Assembly (NCBI RefSeq): GCF_900104535.1
Contig: NZ_LT629710.1
Span: 1,302,001 to 1,366,000 of the forward strand
Source: Nakamurella panacisegetis
GTDB lineage: Bacteria > Actinomycetota > Actinomycetes > Mycobacteriales > Nakamurellaceae
Reading direction: 5' to 3'
Length of the DNA stretch: 64,000 nucleotides
Of the stretch, positions 17,137 through 60,494 are shown one piece after another. A program made the translations under genes and the position numbers. The first letter of the stretch is position 1. Each line of letters opens with the position of its first letter. The notes under the pieces are model-generated. The model was not told where the DNA came from. It did not search any database and saw nothing but the letters and a program-made list of their open reading frames with translations.

Positions 17137-18423
17137 TCACGATCTTCCCCCGGGCGGGGCGCCGCGCACGAGGTACCGCTCGACGACGGCGCGGTCGATC
17201 CCGGCCACGGCCAGCATCTCCTCCGGCCGGACGGCCCCACAGGCCAGCGCGGCGGCCAGATGCCGGGCGAGCGCGAACGCGGTGGCCGGCTCGTCCAGCA
17301 CGCCGCCGGCACCGGGCTCCTGGCGGTGGTAGTCACCGAGCCGGACGGCCGCCTCGGCCCAACCGTCGCGAAAGAAGGAGAACGTGGCCGCGAACCGCGA
17401 CGGCAGCTGCGCCGCGTGCAGGTCCCAGCCCTGGAAGATGCCCTGCCGCAACGCCCGGAGCACCCCGTCGGCGTGGGTCGCCCACCGCTGCCCGACCACG
17501 TCGGGCGGGCCGACCGGCACCTTGTTGTCCGAGCCGTCGGAGACCCGGACACCCGTCTCGGCGGCCGCGAGCATCATCAGTGATTTGGCGAAATCGGCCA
17601 CCGGATGACGCAGATTCTGGTGCGCCCCGAGGATTCCCAGACTGGCCGTGTAGTCATACGTACCGAAGTGCAAACCGGAGACCCGGCCGTCCGCCGCGTG
17701 GATCATCTGGGCCACCGGGACCGTGCCGTCGGCGCCGAGCACGGTCTGGGGAGTCTCCACCTGGATCTCGAAGCGCAACGTCCCCGGCTCGAGCGAGTGG
17801 GCGATCTCCAACTGGGCCAGGACGGCCACGAAGACGCCGATCTGGGCCAGGGAGGTGACCTTCGGGAGGGTGACGACGAAGCCGGCCCGCAGCGGTCCGG
17901 CCGACAGCACGGCGCCCAGGAACAGGTCCAGGGTGCGCAACCCCCGCTGTCGGGTGGCTCCGGCCAGGCTCCGGATCCGCAGGCCCCACGATCGCGGCAT
18001 CGGCTCGGCAGCAACGATTCCCGCCGCCCGGACGGCGTGGTCGTCCTCGTCCAGGTCGTCGGCCACGGTGCCCCGGTGGGCCCGGAAGCCGTCCTCGAAA
18101 TCGATCCGCAGATCCTCGATCGGCTCGGTGACGAGTTTGGCCCTGGTCAGCGCGTCGAGCTCGTCCGGTACGCCGGCCAACCCGGCCAGCAGGTCCTGCC
18201 ACTGCGCCGCATGCTCGTCGAGGGCTGCCACCGCTGCGCCGCCCCATCCGCGGACGACGCCCGGCACGAACCGCGACACCGGGATGTAGACGGTGTGCAC
18301 ACATCCCGGGGCGGGCGGCCCGGGATAGGCGGCCGCGTAGCTGATGTCGTCCGGAACAAGGGCGTCGTCCCAGCGGGCCAACAGCTCTGGGGCGAGCACC
18401 CCGACCTCAGGGAATGAGGTCAT
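17137..18423 (-). CDS. DUF6986 family HpcH/HpaI-like aldolase of unknown function
   Basis: A protein of 428 residues overlapping the aceB stop by 17 bases. It has the TIM-barrel pattern of the HpcH/HpaI/citrate-lyase-beta superfamily: [10 protein letters not shown] with acidic metal-site residues, [66 protein letters not shown], and [20 protein letters not shown]. The reaction is not known to me. It is tightly coupled to malate synthase inside a ureide-degradation operon that has no recognised ureidoglycolate lyase. A lyase step yielding or using glyoxylate is therefore a reasonable hypothesis, and only that. Confidence 0.75.
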
Positions 18424-20005
18424 AGGCCGGGAGGGTCAGGAAGTCGACGTAATTCTTCCGCGTGGTCAGGTCGACCAGCAGATTCCGCGCATCGGCGAGA
18501 AGATTGCGGCCGTGGGGGATCTCGGCCCAGGCGTCGGCCAGATCCTCGGTCGCGGCGTCGGCGATCTCGGTGATCAGGGCCACGGTCACCATCCGGCCGG
18601 TGTCCAGCATCGTGTGCGCCTGCAACCACTGCCACACCTGCGACCGGGAGATCTCGGCGGTTGCGGCGTCCTCCATCAGGTGGTGGATGGCCACCGCGCC
18701 GCGGCCGGACAACCAGGTCACCAGGTATTCCAGAGCCACCGAGATGTTGCCCCGCAGGCCGGCTTCGGTGACGGGGGTGACCCCGTCGATCTGCAGTGAC
18801 TTGAAGTTCAGCAGCTCCGGCCCCGGCACCTGGGCGTCCCGCCCCTTGTCCAGCTGGTTTACCCCGTCGCCGAGCGCGGCGTCGAAGATCTCCCGACACA
18901 CCGGGACCAACCCCGGGTGTGCCACCCAGGAACCCTCGTATCCGGCGTCCGCCTCGCGGGTCTTGTCCGCCCGCACCTTGGCGAAGGCGACCTCGTTGGC
19001 CGCCGGGTCCTTGGACGGGATGAACGCGGCCATGCCACCGATGGCGTACGCACCGCGCTTGTGGCAGGTGGCCACCAGCAGGTCCGAGTAGGCCTTCATG
19101 AACGGCGCGGCCATGGTGATGGTGTTCCGATCCGGCAGGACGAAGTCGGGTCCGGCGTCGCGGAACGTCTTGATCGCCGAGAACAGATAGTCCCAGCGGC
19201 CGGCGTTGAGGCCGGAGGCGTAGTCCCGCAGCTCGTACAGGAACTCGTCCATCTCGAACGCGGCCCAGATGGTCTCGATCAGCATCGTGGCCCGCACGCT
19301 GCCCGCCGGGATGCCGCAGTACTGTTCGGCGAACGCGAAAACCTCGGCCCACAGCCGGGCCTCGAGATGCGATTCCATCTTCGGCAGGTAGAACGCCGGC
19401 CCCCTCCCCCTGGCCAACAATTCGGAGGCGTTGTGGAAGAAGTACAGACCGAAATCGACCAACGAGCCGGACAGCGGCTCGCCGGCGCGGATCAGGTGCT
19501 TCTCGGGCAGGTGCCAACCGCGGGGCCGCATGACGATGACCGCGTGCTCACCGTCGGCGAGACGGTAGGACTTGCCACCCTGTTCGAGCGTGATCGTCTC
19601 CCGGATCGCGTCGGCCAGATTGATCTGCCCGTCGATCACGTTGGGCCAGTGCGGCGTATTGGCGTCCTCCATGTCGGCCAGCCAGACCTTGGCCCCGGAG
19701 TTCATCGCGTTGATCGTCATCTTCCGGTCGGTCGGGCCGGTGATCTCCACCCGCCGGTCGGACAGGTAGGCCGGCGTCGGCGCGACCGTCCAGTCGCCCG
19801 CCCGGATCTCGGCCGTCTCGGGAAGGAAGTCCAGCGTGGCGCCCGCGGCGACGGCGTCCCGGCGCGTGGTGCGCAAGGCCAGCAGCTCGCGCCGCCGATC
19901 ACCGAACTTCGCGTGCAGGGCGTCCAGGAACTCCAGCGCGGCCGGAGTGAGGACGCGCTCGGCACCGGGGACAACGGGTGCGCCGGCCACAACAGAGATG
20001 CTCAC
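18407..20005 (-). CDS. aceB: Malate synthase A
   Basis: A protein of 532 residues, the usual length of the A isoform. It carries RRVEITGPTDRKMTINAMNSGAKVWLADMEDANTPHW, the catalytic region IVMRPRGWHLPEKH, the signature MESHLEARLWAEVFAFAEQYCGIP, TMLIETIWAAFEMDEFLYEL, and a late SRSQVWQWLQ segment. It condenses glyoxylate with acetyl-CoA to give malate. No isocitrate lyase lies nearby. Its place between uricase and urease indicates that it uses the glyoxylate end-product of urate and allantoin breakdown. Confidence 0.95.
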   Translation of the reverse strand: MSISVVAGAPVVPGAERVLTPAALEFLDALHAKFGDRRRELLALRTTRRDAVAAGATLDFLPETAEIRAGDWTVAPTPAYLSDRRVEITGPTDRKMTINAMNSGAKVWLADMEDANTPHWPNVIDGQINLADAIRETITLEQGGKSYRLADGEHAVIVMRPRGWHLPEKHLIRAGEPLSGSLVDFGLYFFHNASELLARGRGPAFYLPKMESHLEARLWAEVFAFAEQYCGIPAGSVRATMLIETIWAAFEMDEFLYELRDYASGLNAGRWDYLFSAIKTFRDAGPDFVLPDRNTITMAAPFMKAYSDLLVATCHKRGAYAIGGMAAFIPSKDPAANEVAFAKVRADKTREADAGYEGSWVAHPGLVPVCREIFDAALGDGVNQLDKGRDAQVPGPELLNFKSLQIDGVTPVTEAGLRGNISVALEYLVTWLSGRGAVAIHHLMEDAATAEISRSQVWQWLQAHTMLDTGRMVTVALITEIADAATEDLADAWAEIPHGRNLLADARNLLVDLTTRKNYVDFLTLPAYDLIP

Positions 20006-20087
20006 GAAACTCCTTCACTCGCAGGCTGCGACCGGCTCGGCCGTCAGAACTTCATCACATCACGGAAGCCTCCCGCCGGGACGGTCC

Positions 20088-20106
20088 GGACCCGGATTTC
20101 GGGTCC
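20088..20106 (-). terminator. Hairpin between uricase and aceB
   Basis: Perfect 7-bp arms GGACCCG (20088-20094) and CGGGTCC (20100-20106) with a five-base loop lie 25 bases after the uricase stop. They may give partial termination or separate mRNA stability. The 125-base gap holds nothing else I recognise. Confidence 0.4.
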
Positions 20107-20130
20107 CGGCCGGCGCCCCGGCGCAGGTGA

Positions 20131-21174
20131 TCACACGAATCCGGCCACACCGTCCCAGGTGCCGGGCGGTACCGGCGCGTCGTCGCGCACGACGGCCGCC
20201 TCGATCAGCCCGTACGGGCGGTCGGCGGCGTAGAAGACCATGTTCGGGTTGTCCAGGTCCCACTTGCCCAGATCGACCACGAAGTGGTGCAGGTTGGGCA
20301 TGGACAGCCGGATCTCGCTGATCTGCGGGTGAGCCTCCAGGACGCTCCGGCCCATCGCGAACAGCGTCTGCTGCAGGGACAGGCTGTGCACCACGGCGAA
20401 CTGCTCCAGCAGGATCGCCTTGACCGAGGCGAACACGGAGTCGAAGTCGACCTCGAGGGTGTTGTAGACCCAGCGGGAGGTGACCGAGGTCGCCATCACC
20501 CGATCGTCGGTCTCCACCAGCGACGTGTAGGGCACGTCGGGGAACCCGTGGAACTCGCTGCCGGTGCTCTTCAGGACGATCAAGCCGGAAACCCCGGAGA
20601 TGACGGTCTCGTCCCCGTTCAAGCCCGGCGTCGCTACGCTCGCCCGGCCGACATCCCCCGTCGCTGCGCTCGCCCGGCCGACATCCCCCGTCGCCGCGCT
20701 CGCCCGGCCGACATCCCCCGTCGCCGCGCTCGCCCGGCCGACATCCCCCGTCGCCGCGCTCGCCCCGGTCCCCTTCTTCACCACGGTCGTCCGGACGGTG
20801 GCCGGACCCCTGGTGAACGAGTGGTCGTGCGGTCCGTCGGCGGTCTGGATGCGGTCCCAGGCGTACTGCTCGATCTCCATGCGGGCGCCCGTCACGTAGG
20901 CGTAGGTGCCCACGTAGTTGCGGGCCAGGCGCAGCCCGAACTCCTCGATCGCGCCGATACCGTCCCGGCGGGCCAGGGCGTAGATCGTGTTCTTCTGGGT
21001 GTCGGTGGCGATGACCTTGTCGTTGGCCCCGGTGAGGTGGGTGTCGGCGAAGTCGCCGATCAACTGGCTGGTGACGTTGAGGTCGGTGATCACGTGGACC
21101 GGTGTGGTCCGGTCCACGTGGACCAGCCGGACCTCGGCCTTCCCGTACCGGTTGGTGCCCAGGACGATCGCCAT
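20131..21174 (-). CDS. Urate oxidase (uricase) with an in-frame repeat insertion
   Basis: A protein of 347 residues, about 45-50 longer than typical bacterial uricases. Both T-fold halves are present: VLGTNRYGKAEVRLVHV with the catalytic Lys, NDKVIATDTQKNTIYALAR with the catalytic Thr, then VLKSTGSEFHGF, YTSLVETDDRVMATSVTSRW, and a C-terminal LPNLHHFVVDLGKW-like segment written here as MPNLHHFVVD. It oxidises urate to 5-hydroxyisourate with oxygen and no cofactor. The extra length is four copies of a ten-residue unit (RASAATGDVG) between TTVVKKGTGAS and the GLIVLKSTGSEF strand, most likely on a surface loop. It sits four bases after the HIU hydrolase gene. Confidence 0.93.
   Translation of the reverse strand: MAIVLGTNRYGKAEVRLVHVDRTTPVHVITDLNVTSQLIGDFADTHLTGANDKVIATDTQKNTIYALARRDGIGAIEEFGLRLARNYVGTYAYVTGARMEIEQYAWDRIQTADGPHDHSFTRGPATVRTTVVKKGTGASAATGDVGRASAATGDVGRASAATGDVGRASAATGDVGRASVATPGLNGDETVISGVSGLIVLKSTGSEFHGFPDVPYTSLVETDDRVMATSVTSRWVYNTLEVDFDSVFASVKAILLEQFAVVHSLSLQQTLFAMGRSVLEAHPQISEIRLSMPNLHHFVVDLGKWDLDNPNMVFYAADRPYGLIEAAVVRDDAPVPPGTWDGVAGFV
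20641..20760. repeat. Four 30-bp tandem repeats inside the uricase gene
   Basis: Units at 20641-20670, 20671-20700, 20701-20730 and 20731-20760 are identical except for one T/C change in the first. A partial unit precedes them (about 20629-20640) and a diverging one follows. Thirty bases is ten codons, so the uricase frame is kept. The unit contains the motif CGTCGC(C/T)GCGCTCGCCCGG. Confidence 0.95.
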
Positions 21175-21177
21175 GTG

Positions 21178-21540
21178 CTAGCTCCCGAGGTAGGTCGAGT
21201 AGGAGTAGGTGCTGGCCAGCACCGGGATGTGGAAATGCGCGCGCGTGGCCGGCAGCAGTACCGACACGGCGATGCGGGGGTAGAACATCGCGCCGTGGAC
21301 CGCGCGGAAGTAGTCCGCGGTGACGAACACGAGCCGGTACTCCCCCGGTTCGAGCGGCTCGGCGTTGAGCTGGGCGACCCGGCCGTCGGCGTCGGTGACG
21401 CCGCCGCCGACCGCAGTGGCCGTGCCGTCGGGCCGGAGCTGCTCCAGCGACACCTCGACGCCCGCGGCGGGCCGGCCGGCGCCGGTGTCCAGCAGGTGGG
21501 TCGACACCCGCTCGATGCTCGCCCTCGACGGCTCGCTCAT
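21178..21540 (-). CDS. 5-hydroxyisourate hydrolase (transthyretin-like)
   Basis: A protein of 120 residues, the normal length for HIU hydrolases. His14 in VSTHLLDTGAGRPA and the HFHIPVL segment supply the conserved active-site histidines, and EYRLVFVTADYF holds the conserved core. The C-terminus reads YSTYLGS where the family tetrapeptide is YRGS, so the normally invariant Arg is Leu (codon CTC). It converts 5-hydroxyisourate to OHCU after uricase. It starts within the last four bases of the OHCU decarboxylase gene. Confidence 0.9.
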   Translation of the reverse strand: MSEPSRASIERVSTHLLDTGAGRPAAGVEVSLEQLRPDGTATAVGGGVTDADGRVAQLNAEPLEPGEYRLVFVTADYFRAVHGAMFYPRIAVSVLLPATRAHFHIPVLASTYSYSTYLGS

Positions 21541-22037
21541 TCCGGCCCCACCGCCTTGGCCAGCCGCAGCAGGCCGATCTGGCGAAGTTCGTCCATCACC
21601 ACCGGCTTCTCCGATTCGGCATCGTTGGTCAGTCGGGACTTCAGGTTCCCCAGGATCTCAGCCCCCGAACGCCCCGCCGCGCGCAGCAGGAAGATGTACC
21701 CGAAACGGGCCTCGTACTCGGCGTTCCCGGCGGCCAGTTCGGCCGCGTCGTCGTCCCGCACCCCGGACTGTTCCGACTCCGACCAGGCCGACTCGGTGGC
21801 CGTCCCCGCGACGGCGGCCTTCTTCTCGCCGATCCGGGGGTGCCGGGCCAGCGCTCCGGCCACCTGCCGCCAGCTGATCTGCCCGGCCCGGTCGGCCGCG
21901 GCCGCCCGGAGCGATTCCAGGTCGGGGTAGGGCCGTCCGGCCGACACCGCCGACACCCACTCCGGGATGTCGAGGCAGGCACCGAGAACCTCTGTGGCCA
22001 CGGCGTCATCGGAGTTGAACTCGGTCAGCGTGGTCAC
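21537..22037 (-). CDS. uraD: OHCU decarboxylase (UraD)
   Basis: A protein of 166 residues from GTG 22037, overlapping the GntR stop by four bases. Family marks include a CLDIPEWVSAV opening, ALARHPRIGEKKA with the catalytic His, the SEQSGV segment, AELAAGNAEYEARFGYIFLLRAAGRSGAEIL, and a C-terminal ELRQIGLLRLAK. It turns OHCU into S-allantoin, the third step from urate. The long frame up to 22304 is a shadow of the GntR gene. Confidence 0.93.
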   Translation of the reverse strand: MTTLTEFNSDDAVATEVLGACLDIPEWVSAVSAGRPYPDLESLRAAAADRAGQISWRQVAGALARHPRIGEKKAAVAGTATESAWSESEQSGVRDDDAAELAAGNAEYEARFGYIFLLRAAGRSGAEILGNLKSRLTNDAESEKPVVMDELRQIGLLRLAKAVGPE

Positions 22038-22807
22038 GACGGCACCCCTCGACGGCCGTCGGGGCGCGGCCGGTGCGGCGGCGACCCGGTGTCGCCGTCG
22101 GGTTCGGTGAACAGTCCGGTGTCGACCGGCAGGGCCGCGATGGAAGTGTCCAGGTGGTCGAGGTGGCGGCTGGCCACGGCCAGCAGGGCAGCGGCCTGAC
22201 GGGCCACGAAGTGGTCGAGCATCGCCCGGTGCTCGGCGTGCAGGCGTCCACGCTGAGCCTGGTCGATGTGCGCCATCGGCTGGAACGGCTCGGTCACGTT
22301 CCACGCCGACTCGAGCATGCCGAGCAGCGGGCGCATGCGGGACGGGGTGACCAGGGCCAGGTGGAACCGGCGGCTCTGCACGTGGTAGCCGTGGAAGTCG
22401 TTGTCGGACATGGCTCGGTCCAGGGCGGCGAGGGCGTCCACGGCGACCGCGTCGTCGGCCGGGGTGGCCAACTCGACCGCGGAGGCCAGCGCCGCCTTCT
22501 CCAGCACCCCGCGCACCGTGTACAGACCTTTGAACTCCTCGACGGTCAGCTGGGCGACCAGGTACCCGGAGTGCGGGCGGTGGTCGACCAACCCTTCACC
22601 GATCAGCGTGCGGAGCGATTCCCGCACCGGGATACGGCTGACGCCGAACGTCTCGGCCACCTGATCGACCGGGATAGGCGTTCCCGGTGCCACGCCGCCC
22701 TCGAGGATCACGCGTCGGAGTTCGGCCAGGATCGCGGCTTGGGAACGGGTGGTCCGGTCACACTGCAGCCGGGCGATGAGGGTGGACGGACGTCTGGCAG
22801 CCGGCAC
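22034..22807 (-). CDS. GntR family (FCD-type) regulator
   Basis: A protein of 257 residues from GTG 22807, eight bases after GGAGG; the open frame to 23059 lacks support. The N-terminal winged helix reads AAILAELRRVILEGG, VDQVAETFGVSRIPVRESLRTLIGEGLV. The C-terminal FCD domain is helical with the metal/ligand-type histidines in FHLAL and LHAEHRAMLDHFV. It leads the uraD, HIU hydrolase, uricase genes by translational overlap. Autoregulated control of the urate operon by a ureide ligand is likely but inferred from position. Confidence 0.88.
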   Translation of the reverse strand: MPAARRPSTLIARLQCDRTTRSQAAILAELRRVILEGGVAPGTPIPVDQVAETFGVSRIPVRESLRTLIGEGLVDHRPHSGYLVAQLTVEEFKGLYTVRGVLEKAALASAVELATPADDAVAVDALAALDRAMSDNDFHGYHVQSRRFHLALVTPSRMRPLLGMLESAWNVTEPFQPMAHIDQAQRGRLHAEHRAMLDHFVARQAAALLAVASRHLDHLDTSIAALPVDTGLFTEPDGDTGSPPHRPRPDGRRGVPS

Positions 22808-23086
22808 CGAATGTCCCTCCGTCGATCGGTGGGCGCCGCCTCGGGGCGTTCGCGCCACTGTGCCGGGCCAACGTCCCGTCGGCGCCCGACAGGTCTTCTC
22901 CTTCGTTCTGCCGGACGGTATCGACCGTATGTTGCCTCCCGATGACGCCCAGGCTGCGCCGGCAAGACTCCGGCGCGGGGCGCCGGGCGTCATCGGCGGG
23001 GGCCCAGGACGGTCCGACATGGCGCCATCATGGCACCCGGCCCGCAACTGCCGCCGCATTCGGCGGCGCCGGTCGGCCGGCGGAGA

Positions 23087-23821
23087 TCAGAGGACCGCGA
23101 ACTCGCTCAGCAGGCCGACGTACTGCTTGGCCGGCGGCGGCGCGAACTCGCCCCAGGTGCTCGTCCGCAGGCCGAGCGCGACCAGCGATTCGGCCATCTT
23201 GGTGGCGGCGGCCACCCCGTCGATCACCGGGACGCCGAGCACGGAACTGATCTCGGCGGCCAAGTCGGCCATGCCGGCGCACCCGAGGACGATGACGTCC
23301 GCCTGGTCCTCGACCAGCGCCGCCCGGCACTCGGCGGTGATGAGTTCGCGGGCACCCGATCCAGGCTCGTCCAGCTCGAGCACCGGGACCTCGCAGGCCC
23401 GTACACCGCGGCAGCGGTCAGCGAATCCGTAGTGCGCGGCCAGGTCCCAGGCCCGACCCCGGGTCCGGCCGAGCGTCGTCACCACGCTGAAGCCGCGGCC
23501 GAGGAAGCTGGCCGCGTGCATGGCCGCTTCGGCGATGCCGACGACCGGCCCGGACGCCAGCTCCCGGGCCGCGTCCAGTCCGGGATCGCCGAAGCAGGCG
23601 ATCACGTAGCCGTCCGCGCCCTCACCCTCACCTCGCTCGACCTCCTCGAGCAGGCCGGGCACCGACAGTGCCTCGTCGTAGTGACTCTCGATCGACGCCG
23701 GGCCCATCGACGGACTGACGGCGCTGATCTCGGTGCCTGCCGCGGCCACCGCGCGGGCGCAGTCGCCGATCCGCCGGGTCATGGCCCACGTGGTGTTCGG
23801 ATTGATGATCTTGATCAGCAT
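23087..23821 (-). CDS. Asp/Glu/hydantoin racemase family protein (probable allantoin racemase)
   Basis: A protein of 244 residues. It begins with the family motif IKIINPNTTWAMT and has the two catalytic cysteines in IACFGDPGLDAARE and VLGCAGMADL. The protein resembles HyuE/HpxA-type hydantoin and allantoin racemases. Between the NCS1 permease and the urate operon, racemisation of allantoin between R and S forms is the likely job, letting a stereospecific allantoinase use all of it. The dispersed repeat begins 17 bases upstream of the ATG. Confidence 0.82.
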   Translation of the reverse strand: MLIKIINPNTTWAMTRRIGDCARAVAAAGTEISAVSPSMGPASIESHYDEALSVPGLLEEVERGEGEGADGYVIACFGDPGLDAARELASGPVVGIAEAAMHAASFLGRGFSVVTTLGRTRGRAWDLAAHYGFADRCRGVRACEVPVLELDEPGSGARELITAECRAALVEDQADVIVLGCAGMADLAAEISSVLGVPVIDGVAAATKMAESLVALGLRTSTWGEFAPPPAKQYVGLLSEFAVL

Positions 23822-23837
23822 GGCTTCTCCGTAGGGC

Positions 23838-23919
23838 GGCGTGGATCAACTTCGCAGGCGTGGCCAAAAATGACGCCTTCCGTCACTCCAGTCCCAAACC
23901 GGAGAAGTTGATCAACGCC
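23838..23919. repeat. Dispersed inverted-repeat element, copy 2
   Basis: GGCGTGGATCAACTTC at 23838-23853 is inverted at 23904-23919 with one mismatch. The first 22 bases equal the start of the copy at 2742. The centre, read on the opposite strand, gives TGGGACTGGAGTGACGGAA (23896-23878), matching copy 1 at 17 of 19 positions. The inner part is therefore flipped relative to copy 1. Confidence 0.85.
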
Positions 23920-23920
23920 A

Positions 23921-24020
23921 GAGGTCGGGACGTGCCGACAGAGTTCGGGACGTGCCGACAGAGTTCGGGACGTGGCGACAGAGGTCGGGACTTGCCGGCA
24001 GAGGTCAGGACCGGCGGTCG
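23921..24020. repeat. 20-bp tandem repeat array (five units)
   Basis: Units start at 23921, 23941, 23961, 23981 and 24001. The consensus is GAGGTCGGGACGTGCCGACA. The first four differ at one to three positions each and the fifth is degenerate. A further decayed stretch rich in GTCGGGACC and CGACG follows to about 24110. The array begins one base after the dispersed element and fills the gap upstream of the racemase, beyond the NCS1 stop. Confidence 0.9.
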
Positions 24021-24123
24021 ACGTCGCCGTCGGGACCTTCCGACGGGGACAAGACCGTTCCGACGACGACGTACCGGGCGAGGCCGTCCGGCCGACGACG
24101 TACCGGCTGCGGCGGGAACCGGC

Positions 24124-25680
24124 TCACACGGCCGCGAGATCGTCGACTGGGACCGAGTTCTTGACGATCGCCGTGCCGACATAGTGGCCGACGAAGCCGA
24201 GCCCGGCACAGATGAACCAGCTGTAGGCGGCCACGCCGGAGGAGGCCCAGAAGACGATGATCACGCCGACCAGCGCTCCGACCAGGGTGGACACGATGGC
24301 CACCGGGTTGTACCCGCGCGAGTAGTGGTAGCGCCCCTTCGGATCCAGCGTGTACAGGTCGTCGACCACCACCCGACGCTTCTTGATCAGGTAGTAGTCG
24401 GCGATCAGGACGCCGTACAGCGGACCGATGAAGCAGCCGAGGATGTCGAGCGTGTAATGGATCGTCTCCGGGTTGTTGTAGAGATTCCACGGGGTGATCA
24501 GCACCGAACCAACGGCCGCGATCATCCCGCCCATCCGCCAGGAGATGCGCTGCGGGTTGACGTTGGAGAAGTCGAACGCCGGCGAGATGAAGTTGGCGAC
24601 GATGTTGATTCCGACGGTGGCGATCATGAAGGTCAGCGCCCCGATCAGCACCGCGGTGGTGGAGTCGAGTTTGGAGACGGTGACCACCGGGTCGGTGATC
24701 AGCTGCCCGAACACCGGACGGGTGGCGGCCGCGGTGACCACGACCAGCACCGAGAAGACGATGAAGTTCAGCGGCAGGCCGAGCAGGTTGCCGCGTTTGA
24801 TCGCCCCGAAAGACTTGCCGTAGCGAGCGAAATCGCCGTAGTTGAGCATCGGACCGGAGAAGTAGGAGACGACCAGCGCGATGGAGCTGAGCAGTACCGG
24901 GACAACCGCCCAGCCGGTCAGCGTCAGACCGCCGTCGGCCAGGTTGAAGTTGATGTGGCTCCAGCCGGCCTTGGTCACCAGGTAGATGGCCAGGACGAAC
25001 ATGACCACATACACGGCCGGCCCACAGAAGTCGATGAACTTGCGAATGGATTCCATGCCCCGCCAGAACACGATGGCCTGGGCCACCCACATCAACATGA
25101 ATCCGGCCCACCCCAGGGCCGAGAGCCCGGCGAATCCGTGCTGCGCCTTGTCGGCCCACGGGGCGACACCGGGCCATATCTTCACAGCCAGCAAGACGAT
25201 CGAGTTGGACGCCAGATAGGTCTGGATCCCGTACCAGGCAACGGCAATGAGGCCGCGGATGATGGCCGGCACGTTCGCGCCGAGCACTCCGAACGGAATC
25301 CGCGAGGCCACCGGATATGGAGTACCGGTGGCGTGTGACGGTTTGGCCACCAGATTGCACAGGAAATAGACGATCACAATACCGACCAATAGTGCGATGA
25401 GTACCTGCCAGGCGGCCAGGCCGAGCGCGAACAGGCTGCCGGCCGTGACGTATCCGCCGACGCTGTGCACATCGGACATCCAGAACGCGAAGAACGCATA
25501 GGACTTCCACGTCTGCTGTTTCAGCGGTGCGAGATCCTCGTTGGTCAGTCGGGGGTCGTAGCCGGGCTTGATCAGGCCACCGAGTTCACTCGGCTCGGCG
25601 TGTCCACCGGTGGGGTGGTGCGGCGCCGGCACCTCGGCGACCTCAGCGGTTGTTGCTGTGCGAGTGGATGTATCGGTCAT
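24124..25680 (-). CDS. NCS1 family permease (allantoin/purine-related)
   Basis: A protein of 518 residues with about twelve membrane segments. GGAG lies five bases before the ATG. The N-terminal soluble part carries LTNEDLAPLKQQTWKSYAFFAFWMSDVHSVGGY, typical of the Mhp1/PucI/Fur group, and later segments include PFGVLGANVPAIIRG and MLNYGDFARYGKSF. NCS1 carriers import nucleobases, hydantoins or allantoin with sodium or protons. Flanked by allantoicase and the racemase, allantoin or a related ureide is the likely substrate. The N-terminus has a His/Pro-rich 30-residue leader of no clear role. Confidence 0.88.
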   Translation of the reverse strand: MTDTSTRTATTAEVAEVPAPHHPTGGHAEPSELGGLIKPGYDPRLTNEDLAPLKQQTWKSYAFFAFWMSDVHSVGGYVTAGSLFALGLAAWQVLIALLVGIVIVYFLCNLVAKPSHATGTPYPVASRIPFGVLGANVPAIIRGLIAVAWYGIQTYLASNSIVLLAVKIWPGVAPWADKAQHGFAGLSALGWAGFMLMWVAQAIVFWRGMESIRKFIDFCGPAVYVVMFVLAIYLVTKAGWSHINFNLADGGLTLTGWAVVPVLLSSIALVVSYFSGPMLNYGDFARYGKSFGAIKRGNLLGLPLNFIVFSVLVVVTAAATRPVFGQLITDPVVTVSKLDSTTAVLIGALTFMIATVGINIVANFISPAFDFSNVNPQRISWRMGGMIAAVGSVLITPWNLYNNPETIHYTLDILGCFIGPLYGVLIADYYLIKKRRVVVDDLYTLDPKGRYHYSRGYNPVAIVSTLVGALVGVIIVFWASSGVAAYSWFICAGLGFVGHYVGTAIVKNSVPVDDLAAV

Positions 25681-43710: not shown

Positions 43711-45092
43711 TACACGAACCGGCCCAGTTGGGGCAGCGCGTCGATCGGCGTCCTGGCCTGCATGCCCTCGCCGATCGCCTGCAGCTTCCAGTTGACGCCG
43801 TCGCGGTAGACCTTGGCCATCACCATGCCGGTGAACGCTCCGCCACCACCCAGGGTGTACCGGGCGAGTTCACCGTTGTTCGACTGGTCCACCAAGCGAC
43901 AGAAGGCGTTCTCCACCTGCTCGAAGGTCTGACCCTCGTAGGAGGTGACGATGAAGACGACCGCCGTGACGTGAGCCGGAAGCCGGGTGAGGTCGACCAT
44001 GATCGACTCGTCGTCACCGTCGCCGGCCCCGGTCCGGTTGTCTCCCAGGTGCTGGACCGAACCGTCCTTGGACGTCAGGTTGTTGAAGAAGATGACGTCG
44101 ATGGGCTGCTGATCGGCAAACATCAGCGCCGAGGCGTCCAGATCGATCTCGACCTCCCGGCTGCCGAACATGCTGCGCTTCTTGATCGGGTCCCAACCCA
44201 GGCCCATCCGGACCATGGTCAGCGCGACGCCGTCCTCCTTGCGCAACGAAACCCGTTGCCCCTTCTGCAGACTGACCGACCGTCCCTTCACCAACGACAC
44301 CTCGCCCGGCACCGCTGCCGGCGGTGGTGGTGCCGGCGGGGCGGACGGGGGCGGATATCCCTGCGGGGCGGACATATGGCCCGGGGGCGGCGAGTGGGCC
44401 GGTGCGGGCGGAGGTGGCGGATAGGACGCAGCCGCCGGTGCAGGGGACGAAGCCGGCCCCTGATGGGCCGGGGGCGAGTAGGCCGGAGGCGCGTAGGCCG
44501 GAGGCTGATAGGTCGGTGCCGCCGGTTGACTCGGCGGTGCCGGTTGACTCGGCGGTGCCGGTTGACTCGGCGGTGCCGCGCCGTCGTCGACCGATACACC
44601 ATGATCGGTGATCAACGCGGCCAGCCCGCCGGCGTAACCCTGACCGACCGCGCGCACCTTCCAGTCCGCACCGCGCCGGTACACCTCGAGGACGATGACG
44701 ATGCTCTCGCTGGACAACCCGGTCGCCTCATAGGTCATCAGCACCGATCCGGCGTCGTCGAGGACCCGGGCCACCGCCGGCGCAAAGGATCCGAAACGGC
44801 TGGCGGTGTCCTCCAGCGCGACCACGACGCGGACCTGATCGATCCCGGCCGGCACCTGAGGGAGGTCCATCTCGATGCGCCACGGCCGCCCCGGCTCCGG
44901 TTGCCGGCATCGCACACCGGGTCCGTCCGGTTGATTGAAGAAGATGAAGTCGGCGTCCGAACGGACCTTCCCGCCGGCGGTGACCAGCAGGGCGGAGAGG
45001 TCGGCCGGGGCGGCGAGATCCACCGTGACGACGATCGATGTGGCTCGCAGCGGCGCGTTCTGGCCCTTGACCAGCGTGACTGGCGCAGTCAT
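43710..45092 (-). CDS. Tandem TerD-domain stress protein
   Basis: A protein of 460 residues from ATG 45092, after AGGAA at seven bases. Two TerD domains (about 1-165 and 275-455) flank a linker of about 100 residues that is extremely Pro/Ala/Tyr-rich, including three APPSQP-type units and repeated YxPPA motifs. The second domain keeps DLDASALMF and GAGDGDDESIMVDLTRLP, consistent with calcium binding. It is the first gene of the operon and a clear paralogue of the third. The low-complexity linker probably keeps the domains flexible or binds proline-recognising partners. Confidence 0.9.
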   Translation of the reverse strand: MTAPVTLVKGQNAPLRATSIVVTVDLAAPADLSALLVTAGGKVRSDADFIFFNQPDGPGVRCRQPEPGRPWRIEMDLPQVPAGIDQVRVVVALEDTASRFGSFAPAVARVLDDAGSVLMTYEATGLSSESIVIVLEVYRRGADWKVRAVGQGYAGGLAALITDHGVSVDDGAAPPSQPAPPSQPAPPSQPAAPTYQPPAYAPPAYSPPAHQGPASSPAPAAASYPPPPPAPAHSPPPGHMSAPQGYPPPSAPPAPPPPAAVPGEVSLVKGRSVSLQKGQRVSLRKEDGVALTMVRMGLGWDPIKKRSMFGSREVEIDLDASALMFADQQPIDVIFFNNLTSKDGSVQHLGDNRTGAGDGDDESIMVDLTRLPAHVTAVVFIVTSYEGQTFEQVENAFCRLVDQSNNGELARYTLGGGGAFTGMVMAKVYRDGVNWKLQAIGEGMQARTPIDALPQLGRFV

Positions 45093-51542: not shown

Positions 51543-51670
51543 CACACCCGTTCGCCCCGTCCACACCCGTTCGCTCCGTCCGCACCCGTTCGCTCCGTCC
51601 GCACCCGTTGACGGCCCGGGAACGGGTGTCCCGGTGGCGAACGGGTGTCGCGGTGGCGAACGGGTGTGGC
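51543..51670. repeat. 19-bp repeat array that reverses orientation
   Basis: Four forward units with core CACCCGTT start at 51543, 51562, 51581 and 51600 (period 19). They are followed by three inverted cores GAACGGGTGT at 51620, 51639 and 51658, again with period 19. The left half can fold on the right half as one long imperfect hairpin. It begins 66 bases after the dehydrogenase stop. The remaining gap to 51954 holds no supported gene. Confidence 0.88.
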
Positions 51671-59363: not shown

Positions 59364-60494
59364 ATGAAGCGGTCCCTCGTCCTCGGCGTCGCCGCCAGCG
59401 CCGCCATGGCGCTGGTACTGGCGGGATGTTCGTCGTCCAAGCCATCCGACGCCAGCAGCACTTCATCGGCCGCCGCCGCGACCTCGGCCGCGGCCTCCGC
59501 CCCGGCTGTCGTGTCGTCCTCCGCCGCCCCAGCCTCATCGGCGGCCGGTTCGTCCGCCGCAGGTTCCTCGGCCGCCGGTTCCTCCTCTGCGGGCTCCTCG
59601 GCCGCGGCGCCGACCAAGGCCAGCAAGAACTACAAGATCTCCTTCATCCAGGGCGTGGCCGGTGACAACTTCTACATCACCATGCAGTGCGGCATCCAGA
59701 CCGAGGCGGCCAAGCTCGGCGTCACGGTGAACACCCAGGGCGCCACCAAGTTCGACCCGACCCTGCAGACCCCGATCCTCGACTCGGTCGTCTCGTCGAA
59801 GCCGGACGCCATCCTGATCGCCCCGACCGACGTCAAGGCCATGCAGGCGCCGTTGGCCAAGGCAGCAGCCGCCGGCATCAAGATCGTTCTCGTCGACACC
59901 ACCGTCAACGACCCGTCGTTCGCTGTCTCGCAGGTCTCCTCCGACAACGTCGGCGGCGGAAAGGCGGCCTTCACCGCGATCAAGGGTCTGCAGCCCAAGG
60001 GCGGCAAGGTTCTCGTCATCTCGGTTGATCCCGGCATCTCCACCACCGATGCGCGGGTCGCTGGCTTCGAGACGGCCACGAAGGCCGACTCGTCGTTCAA
60101 CTACCTCGGCGTCCAGTACTCGCACAACGACCCGGCCACGGCCGCGTCGCTGGTGACGGCCGCCCTGCAGAAGGACCCCGACATCGTCGGCATCTTCGCC
60201 ACCAACCTGTTCGCCGCCGAGGGCGCGGCCACCGGCATCAAGCAGGCCGGCAAGTCGGGCAAGGTCTCGATCGTCGGCTTCGACGCCGGCCCGGACCAGA
60301 TCAAGGCGCTCAAGGCCGGAACGGTTCAGGCCCTGGTGGCCCAGCAACCGGACACCATCGGCGTCGACGGATTGGACCAGGCCGTCGCGGGTCTCGACGG
60401 CGGCAAGGTCACCCCGAAGATCCAGACCGGCTTCTCCATCATCACCTCGGCCAACGTCGACAGCACCACGGCCGCGTACAAGGCAGCCTGCTGA
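59364..60494 (+). CDS. Sugar ABC transporter substrate-binding lipoprotein (CUT2)
   Basis: A protein of 376 residues from ATG 59364, four bases after AAAGGAAA; an upstream GTG at 59349 is less likely. The signal KRSLVLGVAASAAMALVLAGC ends in a lipobox. A Ser/Ala-rich linker of about 60 residues with SSAAG repeats leads to the type I periplasmic-binding fold (YKISFIQGVAGDNFYITMQCGI, ILDSVVSSKPDAILIAPTD, VSIVGFDAGPDQIKALKAGTVQALVAQQP). It binds the sugar outside the membrane. It is the last gene of the operon, before a strong terminator. Confidence 0.93.
   Translation: MKRSLVLGVAASAAMALVLAGCSSSKPSDASSTSSAAAATSAAASAPAVVSSSAAPASSAAGSSAAGSSAAGSSSAGSSAAAPTKASKNYKISFIQGVAGDNFYITMQCGIQTEAAKLGVTVNTQGATKFDPTLQTPILDSVVSSKPDAILIAPTDVKAMQAPLAKAAAAGIKIVLVDTTVNDPSFAVSQVSSDNVGGGKAAFTAIKGLQPKGGKVLVISVDPGISTTDARVAGFETATKADSSFNYLGVQYSHNDPATAASLVTAALQKDPDIVGIFATNLFAAEGAATGIKQAGKSGKVSIVGFDAGPDQIKALKAGTVQALVAQQPDTIGVDGLDQAVAGLDGGKVTPKIQTGFSIITSANVDSTTAAYKAAC

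Follow-up and report, generated by a model that had tools for sequence, protein, structure and literature searches.

A 30-bp tandem repeat translated in frame within a uricase gene of Nakamurella panacisegetis: a probable member of a dispersed, MIRU-like repeat family

How does the gene of a conserved enzyme come to carry a nearly perfect tandem repeat that is translated along with it, and what becomes of the enzyme? This question is raised by the uricase gene in a stretch of 64,000 nucleotides from Nakamurella panacisegetis (contig NZ_LT629710.1, positions 1,302,001 to 1,366,000; hereafter the window). The first-pass annotation had reported near-identical 30-bp units in frame inside the gene at 20641-20760. 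By tandem repeat detection and by reading of the ORF the repeat is real, and these are four true units, but the array is somewhat longer: TRF delimits it to 20629-20765 (period 30, 4.6 copies, 98% matches, score 253), and a pattern search finds five cores over 20629-20767 (Table 1). The coding-strand 30-bp unit, CGGGCGAGCG(C)(A/G)GCGACGGGGGATGTCGGC, encodes GRASAATGDV, and within the uricase ORF (20131-21174, minus strand) the array is translated in frame as (GRASAATGDV)n. On the plus strand the first unit carries GCTACG, the second GCTGCG and the last three GCCGCG; since a derived base is common to the last three copies, the array has grown by stepwise duplication.

Table 1. Features of the uricase gene, its insertion and the adjoining pathway genes, in window coordinates
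Feature	Position	Strand	Evidence
Uricase gene, 347 aa, with in-frame insertion	20131..21174	-	ORF; two-part Pfam match (PF01014); PDB uricase alignments broken at residues 137/190
150-bp (50-aa) block that the uricases of G005, G003 and G001 lack	20619..20768	-	empty-site alignment; ends +/- few bases
Tandem array, period 30, five cores GGCGAGCG(C/T)(A/G)GCGACG	20629..20767	-	TRF and pattern search
Core copy 1 in gene order, 5' end of insert	20749..20767	-	pattern search
Core copy 2	20719..20737	-	pattern search
Core copy 3	20689..20707	-	pattern search
Core copy 4, GCGCAGCG form, also in other arrays of the family	20659..20677	-	pattern search
Core copy 5, GCGTAGCG form, 3' end of insert	20629..20647	-	pattern search
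5-hydroxyisourate (HIU) hydrolase (transthyretin family), next pathway step, intact	21178..21540	-	Pfam PF00576
OHCU decarboxylase, third step, intact; start codon probably further in	21537..22304	-	Pfam PF09349, residues 99-249

To place the insertion, we compared the uricases of relatives. A uricase match was obtained in 28 of 61 related genomes of the order; the insert was seen in none of these others, and in many of the 28 the two flanking halves are contiguous or a few bases apart. In DNA alignments with three of the relatives (G005, G003 and G001) the gap measures exactly 150 bp, i.e. 5 x 30 bp or 50 residues, and their uricases are ~298 aa long with an uninterrupted site, compared with 347 aa here. 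The Pfam uricase family (PF01014) matches both sides of the insert in two stretches (E = 8.9e-58), and the solved uricases 7F2V and 2YZB likewise align as two pieces, 1-137 and 190-346. As merely 3-5 residues of 2YZB and 7F2V lie between these pieces, the insert falls at the junction of the two uricase repeats; judged from the alignments, this is the junction of the subunit's two halves, away from the conserved motifs. Indeed, the motifs YGKAE, ATDTQKN, STGSEF, LQQT and PNxHHF and the residues bordering the insert are intact in the alignment of uricases, in agreement with what had been noted for the flanking motifs. The dN/dS ratio of the gene against G005 is 0.19 (0.29-0.40 for other pairs), and the gene has therefore been under purifying selection. 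Taking this ratio together with the intact genes for HIU hydrolase and OHCU decarboxylase, we infer that the uricase is probably still in use. The earlier proposal that the enzyme tolerates the repeat as a loop gains support from the same conservation and dN/dS value: the protein probably accommodates the 50 residues as a loop that is probably disordered. AlphaFold, run without an alignment, returned a mean pLDDT of 35 and was uninformative on the insert-bearing structure. The three pathway genes adjoin further members of a uric acid cluster (window 17137-25680) with malate synthase, a DUF6986 aldolase-like protein, a GntR-type regulator and a purine-type permease.

Sought outside the uricase gene, the 30-mer was found again: the same core (CCGGGGCGAGCGNAGCGACGGGGGAT, period 30) recurs in about seven further arrays of the host genome. 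A blastn search of the complete 5.01-Mb genome (G000) with the uricase array places them at 389462, 962094, 1065089, 2091635, 2463978, 2748087 and 2778940, with shorter or doubtful copies at 2357863, 2542003 and 4072278. The core has eight matches in this genome and the two-core pattern 17, compared with zero for the reversed controls, and chance is therefore excluded. These arrays sit inside genes, at gene ends or beside genes. According to our reading of the sequences, from which the gene names are taken save where Pfam is cited, they are found in a MenE-like ligase gene (YWLPHDGASGATGDGTGASGATGDG...) and a GcvT-type oxidase gene, at the N-termini of a NuoC-like protein and an alpha/beta hydrolase, at the C-terminus of an ABC ATPase (in the opposite frame, SPVAPLAG) and in the spacer beside a gp25-like gene. 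Close relatives have empty sites at the uricase, the MenE-type ligase, the GcvT-type oxidase, the NuoC N-terminus, the gp25-like spacer and an allantoate hydrolase/deiminase junction; the C-terminus of the ABC ATPase is also shorter in relatives. The array at this last junction, between an allantoate-amidohydrolase-like gene and the deiminase (L032:1501-1625; G000 389462-389586), is the second of the family in a purine-degradation-like locus; it consists of 30- and 27-bp units and contains several GTG codons as possible starts. Weak second protein matches, considered as uricase paralogues in G000, turned out to be other arrays of the repeat family. Two loci of G000 are uncertain family members: RlmA, with an imperfect resemblance at a 21-bp period, and a cupin gene, with a single core.

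Beyond the host genome, the 30-bp family is patchy within Mycobacteriales. If one mismatch is tolerated, the single core is matched 21 times in G000 and at most once in each of the 16 other genomes of the genus, and two-core tandem copies occur in 11 of 399 genomes of Mycobacteriales (1-17 per genome; reversed control 0). A scan of 84,980 species yielded at least 119 stretches with the 30-bp repeat; among the 80 stretches listed, nearly all belong to Mycolicibacterium/Mycobacterium, Gordonia, Rhodococcus, Skermania and Actinomycetospora. The array was also seen on three contigs (L120, L146 and L147) of a metagenome bin labelled Acidobacteriaceae (BOG_194), which may reflect contamination by actinobacterial contigs. 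A search for phages, plasmids or viral contigs carrying 30-bp arrays found none. Likewise, no Y1 transposase (PF01797) scored over the cut-off in G000 or the other array-bearing genomes tested; one of 20 genomes had such a match, and this genome is without two-core arrays. A search of the open-licence PMC literature turned up neither the 30-bp core nor its peptide.

The anatomy of the family was examined over 122 arrays. The conserved core comprises ~26 bp, CCGGGGCGAGCG(N)AGCGACGGG(G/A)(A/G)AT, with ~4 freely variable bases, and the period ranges from 27 to 33 with a mode of 30. The spacers of ~4-10 bp are mostly uniform within an array and different between arrays. On both sides they resemble the local flank more than shuffled pairs do, a pattern as from tandem duplication of core plus flank; isolated single cores exist as well (10 in 0.92 Mb, control 0). 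Target-site duplication was considered and rejected, as the spacer-flank sum of 1.03-1.12 does not even reach the 1.26 that plain tandem duplication would give. According to a simple home-made gene caller, whose calls are crude, 39 of the arrays are internal to genes, 18 lie at C-termini, 9 at N-termini, 11 at gene edges and 45 between genes; the arrays of L145 and L072, for instance, were called intergenic and look like the start of a glpD-like gene. The first-pass annotation had suspected an intergenic repeat that has invaded a gene. A dispersed repeat has indeed invaded the uricase gene, but the family is not mainly intergenic, 66 of the 122 arrays being called inside genes.

Arrays inside genes differ from those outside. 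All periods are multiples of three in 64 of the 66 coding arrays compared with 37 of the 56 others (p = 5e-6), the core lies on the strand of the gene in 53 of the 66 (p = 7e-7), and one frame, GCG AGC GNA GCG ACG GG, is common to 41 of them (p = 2e-16), all three p-values being approximate because arrays from related genomes are not fully independent. In addition, 27 of the 66 lie no more than 60 bp from a gene end (~10% expected). The three-base periods, the bias in strand and frame and the placement at gene ends are signs that disruption has been selected against. Outside genes, too, ~30 is the commonest period (59 of 110 intervals among intergenic and edge arrays). This suggests that the step size is intrinsic and counts against plain slippage, which predicts no such mode. 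Some intergenic arrays fill gene junctions so tightly that 0-6 bp are left, as at the NuoC start GTGACC, and TGA stands just upstream of the first core in 13 of the 122 arrays (random 7%). All six frames of the core are open, and thus the repeat can be translated.

At orthologous sites, the number of copies was found to be 1 versus 3, 2 versus 5 and ~2.5 versus 5. Two assemblies of M. iranicum, 92-96% identical around one site, both have an array there, but the arrays differ in a core base and in the spacer. A second site of this species has five copies in one assembly and ~2.5 in the other, with differing cores. The third has three copies against one core, and the spacer of the three-copy array matches the flank of the single copy. 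At another orthologous site one species has five copies and a second species two, and for three more Mycolicibacterium arrays we found empty sites in relatives at 82-86% identity. The family shows local copy-number change and replacement, and insertion or loss; the M. iranicum arrays look as if whole arrays were rapidly replaced or homogenised. The pairs L272/L273 and L274/L275, each from one shared site of the close M. iranicum assemblies, have changed core bases (GAA versus GGA) and different spacers. The lability of copy number that had been claimed for the uricase repeat is thereby borne out for its sister arrays, evidence that comes from loci other than the uricase gene.

Taken together, we consider it very probable that the uricase array belongs to a family of short dispersed repeats, which insert, multiply on the spot and persist within genes only if they are in frame and harmless. 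A purely local tandem duplication within the uricase gene, independent of any dispersed element, would account for near-identical units with a shared derived base, but it leaves unexplained why the core recurs elsewhere in the genome and in other genera with a control of 0, and why the whole insert is absent in relatives. The dispersed copies refute it, and we regard it as exceedingly improbable. Short tandem arrays are also error-prone in assembly; however, the genome is complete in a single contig, the same family and period appear in many independent assemblies, and what separates array from empty site is a whole number of 30-bp units with the frame kept, so that an assembly or sequencing artefact is very improbable.

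The remaining alternatives concern the enzyme. To add 50 aa between the subunit's two halves is a drastic change, and mildly harmful insertions are known, e.g. the Rickettsia palindromic element (RPE) that altered the substrate affinity of guanylate kinase in Rickettsia (PMC2229807). That the insertion has already inactivated or weakened the uricase nevertheless appears unlikely, as the gene has neither frameshift nor stop, its conserved motifs are intact, its dN/dS against G005 is not raised and the neighbouring pathway genes are intact. It seems quite unlikely, too, that the repeat was selected in uricase as a functional loop that could, for example, stabilise the tetramer, localise the enzyme or regulate its activity through copy number. 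The gene is under purifying selection, its array is intact and in frame, and repeat copy number could tune a protein; yet the same repeat occurs in unrelated proteins and non-coding junctions, on either strand and in more than one frame, and was seen in no uricase of the other species examined.

Among known systems, the best reading of the member of a dispersed family described here is a MIRU-like dispersed minisatellite. Mycobacterial interspersed repetitive units (MIRU) insert at overlapping stop/start codons of operons, and MIRU-type repeats underlie the strain typing of tubercle bacilli; we know of no established account of how such repeats spread. The length of MIRU units is given as 46-101 bp (PMC3914561), and units of 53 and 77 bp have been described (PMC4213456). 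Starting from a published primer for an M. intracellulare repeat, CGACGATGCAGAGCGAAGCGATG (PMC10117815), we arrived at a family of 50-54-bp repeats, mostly 53 bp, in 33 of 61 mycobacterial genomes. They consist of a core and a short array-specific spacer, with TGA/ATGA at the unit ends in many copies. We take these 53-bp repeats, in part by their length, to be putative MIRU. This family (L292-L326, core GATGCAGAGCGNAGCGATG) reaches 58 matches per genome and is similarly patchy. The cores of the 30-bp and 53-bp repeats share an 11-bp word, GAGCGAAGCGA (29 of 20,000 shuffles reach 11), and within the shared stretch GAGCGNAGCGA the same variable base, between GAGCG and AGCGA, differs between arrays in both. 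A gapped alignment of the two cores is weakly significant (162 of 5000 shuffles). A common origin of the two families is thus plausible from these sequence similarities, which are suggestive of kinship.

With MIRU and the 53-bp repeats, the 30-bp family has in common a core without obvious dyad symmetry, an array-specific spacer, dispersed tandem copies whose number differs at orthologous sites, a frequent position at tight gene junctions and an orientation that mostly follows the genes. It differs in its unit of ~30 bp (core 26), which is outside the range of 46-101 bp, in the rest of the core as compared with the 53-bp mycobacterial repeats taken as MIRU, and in that about half of its arrays lie inside genes; it is found in Mycolicibacterium, Gordonia, Rhodococcus and the genus Nakamurella. 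RPE are likewise dispersed, selfish-type repeats tolerated in frame in genes of conserved proteins (PMC2229807), but they are non-tandem palindromes of 105-146 bp, whereas the repeats described here consist of a 26-bp core plus spacer in tandem, without a dyad visible by eye. Palindromic amphipathic repeat coding elements (PARCEL), which were proposed to spread horizontally and within genomes, are in-frame tandem coding repeats of punctate distribution as well (PMC2996958); their units, however, have 25 residues, are palindromic and amphipathic and lie in ORFs of unknown function, while those of the 30-bp family have 10 residues, are linker-like and lie in known enzymes. REP/BIME, mobilised by RAYT (Y1) transposases, are also short, dispersed and present in many copies; the 30-bp core differs from them in having no evident palindrome and, in the array-bearing genomes tested, no Y1 transposase over the cut-off. 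A CRISPR array was rejected, as the spacers of ~4-10 bp are mostly identical within an array and not distinct sequences of protospacer length. In its behaviour the 30-bp family resembles MIRU (tandem, dispersed, labile) as well as RPE (in frame, tolerated). Since it has neither the unit length of MIRU nor the palindrome of RPE, we file it as a variant and not as a member; it represents a shorter, possibly sister family to MIRU-type repeats.

For this dispersed family we propose the following course of events. The ~26-bp core, alone or as a short array, would be copied into a new site by a putative activity. Tandem duplication of the core with a few bases of flank would follow, ~30 bp at a step and probably through replication slippage or unequal recombination, and would give each array its own spacer and copy number. 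Insertions that change the reading frame or upset the fold would be purged by selection. Those that remain would be 3n bases long, code for small, polar, linker-like peptides (GASEATGD type) and lie in loops, in gene junctions or at termini; no benefit to the host would be needed for an array to persist. A more far-reaching version, which we put forward as tentative and rather doubtful, is a self-propagating DNA element of Mycobacteriales with a 26-bp non-palindromic core related to that of MIRU, copied by a host or element-borne activity and duplicated with a ~30-bp ruler (three helical turns), which adds peptides to conserved proteins species by species. Single- and multi-copy alleles and empty sites in close relatives make insertion and amplification testable in non-pathogenic actinobacteria, and the insertions in conserved enzymes are natural experiments on the amount of unstructured peptide that a folded enzyme tolerates.

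The window contains further tandem repeats. A 20-bp repeat, CAGAGGTCGGGACGTGCCGA (23919-24011, 4.7 copies, 90%), lies between a hydantoin-racemase-like gene and a purine/cytosine permease gene and is unlike the 30-bp family in sequence. Two low-complexity arrays were also found, one of 18 bp (44521-44578, 3.2 copies, 100% identical) and one of 30 bp (59520-59605, 78%). At 51543-51667, two 19-bp arrays, CACACCCGTTCGCTCCGTC (x3.5) and GAACGGGTGTCCCGGTGGC (x2.5), are directly adjacent and partly inverted copies of each other.
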